From Streptomyces lunaelactis (GTDB lineage Bacteria > Actinomycetota > Actinomycetes > Streptomycetales > Streptomycetaceae), in assembly GCF_003054555.1 (NCBI RefSeq), contig NZ_CP026304.1, positions 372,001 through 436,000 of the forward strand: 64,000 nt of DNA. Direction: 5' to 3'. Below the pieces are notes generated by a model. That model was not told where the DNA came from, searched no databases, and saw only the letters and a list, made by a program, of their open reading frames with translations. This document shows positions 2,372 through 4,478 of the stretch, piece after piece. The first letter of the stretch is position 1; every line of letters begins with the position of its first letter. The translations under genes were made by a program, and so were the position numbers.

Positions 2372-3280
2372 TCAGGGACTCGCCTTGTCACGGCAGGAAC
2401 GGGCATCGATGGCATCGGTGCTCGGTTTGTGCTCGTTGATCCGTTCCGGGTCGCCTTCCGCGAGGAGAGGCAAAGAGGTGTCGATGTCCTTGCTCCAAGT
2501 GCTGCTGCCCACGTATGTCTTCAGCCACGAGGCGAGCTCGAGGCAGTCCGCGCGGTGCCCCTTCGGTATCCCTATCCCGTAGTACTGCGGCGCTCCCACC
2601 TTCAGGTCCGGCACGACGCGCAAGCCGTCCTTGGCATGGTGCTGGGCGAAGCCGTAGAGGATGGTCTGGTCCGTGGACACAGCGGCAACCTGACCGCCGA
2701 GGAGAGCTTCGATGCAGTCGGAGGCGTCATCCTTGACCACTGGCTCCCACTCCGACGTGACCCTGCTGTCGTCCACGGTCTTCTGGGACGTGGTCCCGTC
2801 CCATGTGCAGACGCGCTTGCCGCGCAGATCGTCCATCGTCTGCACGTCAGCGCCGTCCGGTCCCACAAGGAAGCCCTGCCACGTCTTCAGGTAGGGACCG
2901 ACGAAATCGATCTCGAGCATGCGCTCCGGCGTAATGGAGAAGGAAGCGATCGTCATGTCGGCGCGCTTCGAGACCAGTTGCGCGACGCGGTCCCGGGACG
3001 ACACCGGGACCGGGTCACTGAACTCGACGTCCAGCTCTTCTCTGACGTGCTTGAACAGCAGGTAGTCCAGTCCGGAATGGCCGTGGTCGTCAACGTGGGA
3101 CAGACCGGGCAGGTCGTTGTGCATCGCGACGGTGACTCTCTCCCTGCCGAGGAACTCGGGTTCCGGCTCCGCGGAACACGAGAGCAGTCCCACGAGGGCA
3201 ACCAGCGAGACGGCGCCCCCTCGCGTGAGACGCGGGGAAAGCGGCCGGATGCGCCTTTGGGGTAACGGAATTCGAGACAT
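2372..3280 (-). CDS. Polar-amino-acid-type ABC substrate-binding lipoprotein (SBP_bac_3 fold)
   Basis: A 302-residue exported solute-binding protein. The first 35 residues form a basic and then hydrophobic signal ending in a lipobox (LLSC, Cys35), so the mature protein should be anchored to the outer face of the membrane. The rest resembles family 3 binding proteins: VTVAMHNDLPGLSH at the start of lobe 1, then RADMTIASFSITPERMLEIDF, and DLRGKRVCTWDGTTSQKTVD opening lobe 2. No permease or ATPase gene lies nearby, so it may serve a distant transporter or act as a sensor. Its start lies 11 bases beyond the stop of the upstream membrane-protein gene and is preceded by GAAAGGG, so it is probably the last gene of a three-gene operon. 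Confidence 0.82.
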   Translation of the reverse strand: MSRIPLPQRRIRPLSPRLTRGGAVSLVALVGLLSCSAEPEPEFLGRERVTVAMHNDLPGLSHVDDHGHSGLDYLLFKHVREELDVEFSDPVPVSSRDRVAQLVSKRADMTIASFSITPERMLEIDFVGPYLKTWQGFLVGPDGADVQTMDDLRGKRVCTWDGTTSQKTVDDSRVTSEWEPVVKDDASDCIEALLGGQVAAVSTDQTILYGFAQHHAKDGLRVVPDLKVGAPQYYGIGIPKGHRADCLELASWLKTYVGSSTWSKDIDTSLPLLAEGDPERINEHKPSTDAIDARSCRDKASP

Positions 3281-3291
3281 GGCCGGCCCTT

Positions 3292-4032
3292 TCAGTCATG
3301 GAGTGCCGCTTCGGCCACGGACACACTCATGCGACACCCGTCCTCGGTCAGCAGGTCGACGTCGACGACAATCCTGTCCCGCAGGCCTCCCAGCGGGAAC
3401 TCGACCGGCTGTCCACTCGTGACGTCGGCAACGAGGGTGTTCGCGTTATTGGGGAGCTGGACCGCCATCTCGGTGTCAGGAGTGCACGACTGTGCTCCCG
3501 GTACGGCGTCCGCGACCGTCAGCACCAGGCGCAACTGGGCGCGCTCCGGGGGCGCGTTCACCACGACGCGCAGCCCTGATCCATTCGTCCCCGTGGCAGG
3601 CGAGATGCGCGTGCGGCCCGTGACATCGACCTCGCCGTGATCCGCCAAGTGATCCATTCCGACGATCCCGAGGACCGCCAGCAGCAGCGACCCCCCTGTC
3701 ATCAGGGCGCGCCACACGGCGGACGAGTCGCGGCTGCCCACACCGATCACCCGGCAAAAGGCCACGACCACTGCGGCACCGATGGCGAAGTACACCCAAA
3801 GGAACTGATCCGTCGGCCCGCCCGGAGCGATGATCAGAGCGACCGCGCCCAACGTGATCACCAGGAAGAACGGTGGCCAGTTCCAGCCGCTCCAGCGTTT
3901 GACGTTGCCGATGAACTCGGCAGGATCGCCCACGAACACGCTGAGAAAAAGCTTGCCGACCTTGCCGATGGCGGGTGCGCCCTCGCCATGGGACGCGACC
4001 TGCACATCGTCACCACGGCGGTCGTCGGTCAA
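3292..4032 (-). CDS. Membrane protein with N-terminal glycine-rich motif
   Basis: 246 residues of unknown function. Residues 14-25 (SHGEGAPAIGKV) nearly repeat a segment at the C-terminus of the upstream gene product. They are followed by three likely membrane segments (about residues 54-70, 77-98 and 109-127) and a C-terminal region of about 115 residues, rich in beta-type sequence, that should lie on one side of the membrane. The TTG start overlaps the upstream stop (TTGA), so translation is probably coupled. The arrangement of a short motif on a soluble partner and the same motif on a membrane protein resembles bacterial amyloid-signalling pairs; that reading is inference only. Confidence 0.6.
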   Translation of the reverse strand: MTDDRRGDDVQVASHGEGAPAIGKVGKLFLSVFVGDPAEFIGNVKRWSGWNWPPFFLVITLGAVALIIAPGGPTDQFLWVYFAIGAAVVVAFCRVIGVGSRDSSAVWRALMTGGSLLLAVLGIVGMDHLADHGEVDVTGRTRISPATGTNGSGLRVVVNAPPERAQLRLVLTVADAVPGAQSCTPDTEMAVQLPNNANTLVADVTSGQPVEFPLGGLRDRIVVDVDLLTEDGCRMSVSVAEAALHD

Positions 4033-4478
4033 CTGCGGGCCTCCCGCTCCGGGCGGGGGTTGTAAGTGAAGTTCGCCGTGTGGACCTTGCCGATCGCGGC
4101 CGCGCCCTCGCCGTGGGACGTCACATGGAACGTGTCACCCGAGTGGTACGTCTCGTACGCCCGCTCGATGTGCCGACTGAGGGCCTCGGCGCTCAAGTCG
4201 CCTTCCTCTTCCAGCCATTTCCCGACGGCAGCTGCCAGAATCTGCCGGTCCTCGCCCTCGAGACGCTCGATGACCGCGAGCACATCCGTATCCTGCGGCG
4301 TCTGCGGCGGGTCGCCGGCTCCCCGGTTCAACAGCCGGGCCAGAAACCTCTGGCCACGATCCACTACGCCGTCCGCAATCCTCGTCTGGGCCGACTCGAC
4401 CACGGCGCCTGAGAAGGATGCGGCGGCGGTGCTGATGAACGGAGCGATGACAGCAGCAGCTGTCACTAGCTCGGACAT
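4029..4478 (-). CDS. Small helical protein with C-terminal glycine-rich motif
   Basis: 149 residues of unknown function. The ATG at 4478 is chosen over an upstream in-frame start because GGAGGGGAG sits just before it. The N-terminal 110 residues look alpha-helical, with an Ala-rich stretch (residues 5-30) that could contact a membrane, and a short acidic segment around residues 60-90. The C-terminus ends in a motif, SHGEGAAAIGKV at residues 121-132, that matches the N-terminus of the next gene product at 11 of 12 positions. First gene of an apparent operon with the membrane protein and the solute-binding lipoprotein. Confidence 0.6.
   Translation of the reverse strand: MSELVTAAAVIAPFISTAAASFSGAVVESAQTRIADGVVDRGQRFLARLLNRGAGDPPQTPQDTDVLAVIERLEGEDRQILAAAVGKWLEEEGDLSAEALSRHIERAYETYHSGDTFHVTSHGEGAAAIGKVHTANFTYNPRPEREARS

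Follow-up and report, generated by a model that had tools for sequence, protein, structure and literature searches.

Bell-NLR amyloid signalosomes of multicellular bacteria, with the motifs BASS1-10, were reportedly described by Dyrka et al. in 2020. Non-NLR amyloid signalling in bacteria has been named in print as an open question. Bell proteins and BASS motifs are encoded by adjacent or overlapping genes in multicellular bacteria (PMC7889193), and Bell-NLR signalosomes are also covered in PMC8086366, PMC9815663 and PMC12261475. Here we describe a Streptomyces operon in which a Bell-like protein shares a short motif with a membrane protein, and which we regard, by a modest preference, as a putative transmembrane, NLR-independent amyloid signalosome.

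The operon and its shared motif

The operon lies on the minus strand of a 64,000-nt stretch of the Streptomyces lunaelactis genome (the window, in whose numbering all window coordinates are given) and comprises three genes. The first, G1 (4029..4478), encodes a 149-aa helical Bell-like protein, as judged from its ORF, homologues, profile kinship to Bell-like proteins and an AlphaFold model. The second, G2 (3292..4032), encodes a 246-aa predicted transducer with a disordered N-terminus, three transmembrane helices and a beta-sandwich ectodomain (ORF, homologues, AlphaFold). The two reading frames, which lie where the first-pass annotation had placed the gene pair (3292..4478), overlap by 4 nt. 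Eleven bases past the end of G2 starts the SBP gene (2372..3280), whose product is a family-3 solute-binding protein with a lipobox; four of its cysteines are conserved, and so are its pocket residues, which are of the amino-acid type. An ISL3-family transposase lies near the operon at 17-1459. Together with an MMPL transporter and a two-component pair, this transposase makes up the four flanking window genes that were scanned; no ABC permease or ATPase was found among these four.

The C-terminus of G1 carries the motif copy SHGEGAAAIGKV (4083..4118, minus strand) and the N-terminus of G2 the copy SHGEGAPAIGKV (3958..3993, minus strand); this motif is Gly-rich, includes a small hydrophobic core and has the pattern SHGEGxxAIGKV. 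Both copies are covered by a 57-nt direct repeat, 79% identical and in the same frame, which decodes to the 19 residues GDTFHVTSHGEGAAAIGKV in G1 (4083..4139, minus strand) and GDDVQVASHGEGAPAIGKV in G2 (3958..4014, minus strand). The first-pass annotation had seen both the near-identical motif and the likeness of the surrounding DNA, and both observations stand. Indeed, 14 of the 19 residues are identical between G1 tail and G2 head, and the local alignment score of 69 was reached by none of 20,000 residue shuffles, the best of which scored 46. A search of the window's own genome with the G1 tail returned G1 itself first and then the G2 head (E 0.016); as to a third motif carrier in this genome, there were only two chance-level matches (E 1.1 and 3.0).

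The AlphaFold model of G1 shows helices between residues 3 and 112 followed by a disordered C-terminal tail, at modest confidence (pLDDT 66) and with no clear match in the PDB. In the window's G1 the hydrophobic helix comprises residues 4-22, and a first helix of this kind was called in 19 of the 33 G1 proteins of the non-redundant set defined below. For G2, the model (pLDDT 84) has a disordered head, three transmembrane helices and a confident beta-sandwich. AlphaFold and a hydropathy scan agree on the helices, which bears out the three membrane segments originally noted: residues 49-67 (3832..3888), 74-96 (3745..3813) and 105-132 (3637..3720), all on the minus strand. Across the family, a crude hydropathy scan finds three segments in 17 of 33 G2 proteins; the others show one, two or four. 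The predicted extracytoplasmic beta-sandwich, which rests on AlphaFold and the alignment, covers residues 141-245 (3298..3612, minus strand) and includes C183 and C233, both invariant in a 52-row alignment. The loop between the last two segments has basic/acidic counts of 5/0 in L051, 15/3 in L085 and 1/1 in the window; this charge in some relatives, together with the odd number of helices, suggests that the G2 head is cytoplasmic and the sandwich outside. G2 has no significant match in Pfam, NCBIfam or PADLOC, and no PADLOC model matches G1, G2 or the SBP at E <= 1.

The solute-binding lipoprotein gene that had been proposed downstream is indeed there (3280..2372, with lipobox). Its product contains an SBP_bac_3 domain (E 6e-14, above the curated cut-off) and matches amino-acid SBPs. 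Among 59 SBPs of the family, the arginine of TxER is kept in 56, the aspartate of TD in 58 and the four cysteines in all 59; in family 3 this arginine and aspartate are the residues that bind the amino acid. A lipobox expression matches 48 of the 59, and the group of L007, L010, L012 and L013 seems to be without one.

Recurrence of the operon and joint variation of the motif

A protein database search with G2 listed 40 entries, one of them the window's own, and all those named are from Streptomyces; the closest named relative of the window is Streptomyces sp. ISL-1 (98% in G2). In a 36-row alignment of G2, two rows lack the N-terminus and most of the others bear a head of the type GxxSxAIGxV. 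Used as the query for a genome scan, this alignment yielded 18 loci from Streptomyces and Embleya, and a G1 relative lies upstream of G2 in all 18. Within the window's genus, G2 occurs in 36 of 392 genomes, at 38 places, and a G1 recognised by profile stands beside G2 in 29 of the 392 genomes (30 with locus L078). A G1-based search added three operons that the first G2 profile had missed (L119-L121). An SBP gene follows G2 within 400 nt in 59 of 60 loci; with each distinct G2 protein counted once, the figure is 50 of 51, and the exception stops at a contig end. A 4-nt overlap between the start codon of G2 and the stop codon of G1 is seen in 41 of 46 pairs (30 of the 33 in the non-redundant set), the start closest to the G1 stop being chosen in this count. 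The G1-G2-SBP gene order recurs, and the match between G1 and G2 is not a private duplication.

Outside Streptomyces, relatives of the operon are carried by the Embleya loci L015 and L016. In the latter, from Embleya hyalina, an internal deletion leaves only the two ends of G1 (L016:4729-4911), and G2 and the SBP gene are kept. Across 394 genomes of the class there were ten matches, six in the window's genus and four in other families, three of these four being weak (E 4e-4 to 4e-5) and limited to about residues 41-126. Two short loci, L156 from the same genus and L157 from another family (E 2e-12), were read and revealed neither G1 nor the motif. An orphan G1 paralogue was also observed (L118:6932-7459), in a genome that has the full operon L069; the next gene there encodes a 350-aa protein that looks membrane-like by eye and matches no Pfam family, followed by a gene that looks kinase-like by eye.

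The first-pass annotation had been wary that homologues might keep both genes and lose the motif. We found that homologues with both genes keep a shared motif and that it varies between pairs, in both partners together. The window's pair reads AIGKV in G1 and AIGKV in G2, L014 has NNSQAIG and DSSQAIG, and L009 has GSAGFGYVHHL and RSLGFGYVHLL. The corresponding G1/G2 pairs are GAIAIERVEGDV / GAVAVAHVVGDV in L015, TATGQGSIAAVEI / TAHGDHSIAAGTI in L018, GDNNIVIGSVGTF / GDNNNIIGNAGTF in L120, HGDYSVAVQTIGDNATFNL / HGSHSVSADTIGSGATFNL in L073 and, in L078, where G1 is known by position alone, GGKNAVHTGSGDQ / GGNNAIHTGSGRQ.

This joint variation was quantified over 33 non-redundant pairs (G2 identity < 85%; 13 pairs were dropped as redundant at 85%). 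The set excludes L016 for its G1 deletion, L087 because it is the window again, L078 because its G1 is known from position alone, L072 for want of an adjacent G1, L118 for want of a G2, and ten loci without G1. Alignments of G1 tail against G2 head scored 52.7 on average for cognate and 30.8 for non-cognate combinations, and none of 20,000 re-pairings was as high, these permutations leaving the relatedness of the rows in place. The same held when partners were exchanged only inside each of seven G2 subfamilies, of which two consist of one locus (0 of 20,000). In the controls, the G1 tail scored 23.8 against the cognate and 24.3 against non-cognate G2 ectodomains (15,663 of 20,000 re-pairings as high), and the G1 head 21.2 and 20.4 against G2 heads (2,152 of 20,000). 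The cognate G2 head ranks first for only 11 of the 33 G1 tails and among the top three for 21, so specificity appears to be set by subfamily more than by locus. As a background, 177 other adjacent gene pairs gave a 95th percentile of 32, which each of the 33 pairs surpasses, and a maximum of 71, which three surpass; the three top background pairs, including that maximum, are adjacent, alike MTCxxC domains, which we read as metal-binding. Chance as the source of the G1/G2 match can be set aside on the strength of the shuffles, the re-pairings and the background pairs.

At the codon level, identical residues share the same codon in 235 of 368 cases, where 215 ± 8.2 would be expected from each locus's own usage (237 of 370 against 206 ± 8.7 with pooled usage), and this slight excess makes occasional gene conversion possible. 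For the window's pair, 10 of 14 identical residues have the same codon, with 7.9 expected. A recent DNA duplication and nothing else, an outcome the first-pass annotation had held against its own idea, is not what emerged from the near-expected codon sharing and the joint change of the motif across seven subfamilies.

Relatives of G1 and loci with other arrangements

Profile comparison links the G1 family to 16 remote relatives (L122-L137) with a probability of 98.8% (one-to-one E 1e-16) over 131 columns, which span the helical part and the tail. These relatives adjoin large genes, and 12 of the 13 neighbours scanned match NACHT, NB-ARC, STAND or TPR models at E <= 0.001. The curated Pfam cut-off is reached by three of them only (NACHT in L127, NB-ARC in L124 and L130); six lie below it (NB-ARC in L134 and L137, STAND-type in L128, L129, L133 and L136), and L122, L123 and L131 match TPR alone. 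The neighbour in L135 matches no model, and Pfam assigns no family to the protein encoded next to the orphan G1 (L118). In eight pairs that were aligned, the tail of the small protein and the head of its large neighbour share a motif, as in L134 (ASGTRSIAAQHIGTAVTGD / ASGPRSIAAGTIGTAITGD). Several motifs of the membrane family resemble those of the Bell-NLR type, for example TATGQGSIAAGEIR and TASGERSIAAQHIR; the window's motif is among the weaker matches, with 14 and 13 of 500 shuffles doing as well, uncorrected for the choice of the best of 16. Since its remote relatives stand beside NLR-like proteins with which they share motifs, G1 seems akin to the Bell effectors that act in NLR amyloid signalosomes, the Bell status of the 16 being judged from their neighbours and motifs. 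The likeness to amyloid-signalling pairs that the first-pass annotation had suggested is thus strengthened on the side of G1, which has profile kinship to small proteins beside motif-sharing NLR-like genes; amyloid formation itself and any outcome for the cell stay hypothetical.

Not every G2 has an adjacent G1. Among the 38 G2 loci of the genus, a profile identifies G1 in 26 and position does so in one (L078); ten are without, and the remaining one is L072. In the ten, which are distant relatives (L075-L077, L079-L084 and L086), no G1 was found by profile and no motif could be recognised, and a divergent G1 like that of L078 could escape such a search. Nine of them have the SBP gene, L082 being at a contig end. 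When nine of these heads were aligned to the 33 tails (the L082 head reads N and has no score), the best scores were 27 to 57; the four alignments inspected (L077, L084, L075 and L079) all run to the Pro/Gly-rich linker of L121. We read these motif-less relatives with SBP as a two-gene, outside-sensor pair.

L072 (6896-7729) has no adjacent G1 and carries a motif of another class, HNSVSGGQQQGGVTQAHTVNNL. A search of its own genome (G353) with the L072 head returned the head itself, then an open frame of 188 aa that lies on a different contig (E 0.002), and further down an NTPase-like protein (E 0.7; NB-ARC below the cut-off) and a frame that a stop codon interrupts (E 1.0). The 188-aa frame has no Pfam family, matches the Bell-like profile weakly (E 0.0027) and terminates in HNTISGGVQHGTVIQAHTIGDL plus a short tail. 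It scores 75 against the L072 head, where none of the 33 adjacent-type tails gets beyond 37. The unlinked Bell-like ORF and the NTPase-like protein, L144 and L145, lie in the same genome as L072. This match in trans is a single case, of the kind that one would expect if the motif sets the wiring.

Another arrangement was seen in L161 (L161:1-12001, minus strand; G646:C1:5162000-5174000), where a G2 relative and its SBP gene are preceded by a different small membrane protein. The C-terminal part of this protein, GTGKARASGGGSANSGVRLDG, resembles by eye the G2 head GTGGAKASDGGTAVSGTVFRS, and it is possibly another effector with another shared motif.

A proposed mechanism, its alternatives and comparison with known systems

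Gene order, predicted topology, motif sharing, joint motif variation and the kinship of G1 to Bell-like proteins beside NLR-like genes are what the computation shows; on these we propose a mechanism in which we infer ligand control, SBP-G2 contact, cross-beta templating and membrane damage. Outside the membrane, the SBP would bind or lose a small ligand and engage the beta-sandwich ectodomain of G2, which would then cluster in the membrane. The disordered N-terminal motifs of G2 on the cytoplasmic side could thereby stack into a cross-beta seed, which would template the similar motif in the disordered tail of G1. This effector, Bell-like and with a hydrophobic first helix, would oligomerise at the membrane and either permeabilise it or start a regulated step of cell death or differentiation. 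In its full form, amyloid templating would act across the membrane: an outside SBP and a three-helix transducer would replace the NLR and seed an inner Bell-type effector, and the transducer family would repeatedly have changed its motif together with the effector. In one genome the transducer's motif may recur in an NLR-like protein as well as in an unlinked Bell-like one, so that receptors of the membrane and of the cytosol could converge on a single effector. To this full version we give close to an even chance, falling a little short of it.

Of the alternatives, homotypic docking other than amyloid survives best, and we consider it unlikely, at something under one chance in four. Here the motifs of G1 and G2 would be short beta-strands that form a finite complex, keeping G1 at the membrane or inactive. 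Joint motif variation would fit any homotypic contact, and the motif is Gly-rich with a small hydrophobic core; however, both motifs lie in tails predicted to be disordered, and related tails occur in Bell-like/NLR-like pairs, the setting of the published bacterial motifs (PMC7889193).

We find it improbable that G1 is a toxin and G2 its membrane-bound immunity protein or antitoxin, with the motif holding the toxin inactive and the SBP relaying a release signal. The remote relatives of G1 adjoin large NLR-like genes and not small antitoxins, even though the tight G1/G2 overlap, the small size of G1 with its hydrophobic first helix and the one-to-one pairing in the window's genome would all suit such a system. 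Furthermore, the SBP gene is kept in nearly every locus (59 of 60) and 9 of the 38 genus loci are G2-SBP pairs with neither a G1 by profile nor the motif, so that G2 fits a sensor better than an antitoxin.

An ordinary locus for amino-acid uptake or sensing, with two unrelated small genes upstream, has very little in its favour beyond the match of the SBP to amino-acid SBPs, which has to be set against the recurrent G1-G2-SBP order and a scan of four flanking window genes that revealed neither an ABC permease nor an ATPase. Least credible of all, and already disfavoured, is a recent, functionless copying of DNA over the gene border by duplication or gene conversion: the 57-nt repeat at 79% identity and the slight codon excess are what it would predict, whereas 33 pairs from seven subfamilies retain the motif and vary it jointly, codon sharing in the window is 10 of 14 against 7.9 and the L072 motif finds its match in trans.

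Returning to the putative transmembrane signalosome, we compared it with several described systems. In HET-S/NWD2 and related NLR pairs, a motif of effector and receptor is likewise thought to template and the helical effector targets the membrane (PMC7889193), but those pairs are fungal and NLR-based. The RHIM/BASS3 core is [IV]-Q-[IV]-G. It is absent from the window's motif, and over the 33 pairs the corresponding expression finds L009 only, outside the conserved AIG-type core. GFP fusions of the BASS3 and PUASM motifs have been expressed in Podospora anserina (PMC9815663). The likeness to RHIM/BASS3 lies in the short homotypic motif and in the V/I-x-Q-A type found in the L072 G2 and in the Bell-like ORF and NLR-like protein of the same genome. 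EACC2/TRADD-N systems are also prokaryotic and join a constant component to C-terminal domains that can be exchanged, some of them extracellular with transmembrane helices, but they use other domains, and the accessible part of PMC8195603 describes no shared short motif pair. With family-3 amino-acid SBPs (SBP_bac_3; ArtJ, GlnH, AncQR) the SBP product and its pocket residues agree; the difference is that the SBP here is a regular partner of G2, with no ABC transporter gene among the scanned flanking window genes.

A literature search, judged by titles and the starts of abstracts and with subscription papers mostly outside its coverage, found no non-NLR bacterial amyloid membrane receptor and no such operon. 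Likewise, the available portions of PMC12881547, PMC12133306, PMC12261475 and PMC10907252 describe neither this operon nor a motif-bearing membrane receptor.

The closest known systems are therefore the Bell-NLR signalosomes. They too have a small helical effector with a C-terminal motif and an overlapping partner gene with a like N-terminal motif, and by these marks of the Bell-BASS-NLR type the operon has the helical effector with its hydrophobic helix and the shared motif in an overlapping gene, and lacks the NLR partner. G1 has profile kinship to proteins of such pairs and some motifs are similar, the pattern SHGEGxxAIGKV having been compared with the motifs of the L122-L137 pairs. The partner, in contrast, is a three-helix membrane protein with an extracytoplasmic domain and an SBP, where theirs is an NLR. 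The type of effector and the logic of the motif are thus already known; what is new, by our literature search, is that a transmembrane receptor together with an SBP would take over the part of the NLR, which makes the system a variant of Bell-type signalling. We believe that the operon offers a concrete candidate answer to the question of non-NLR amyloid signalling in bacteria. On the practical side, the pocket chemistry of the SBP is conserved, so ligands can be screened directly; if the proposal is true, the upstream trigger of an amyloid signalosome would become accessible, with an amino-acid-type SBP as its sensor. The described bacterial systems of this type sense through a receptor inside the cell, whereas here the sensor would be outside.
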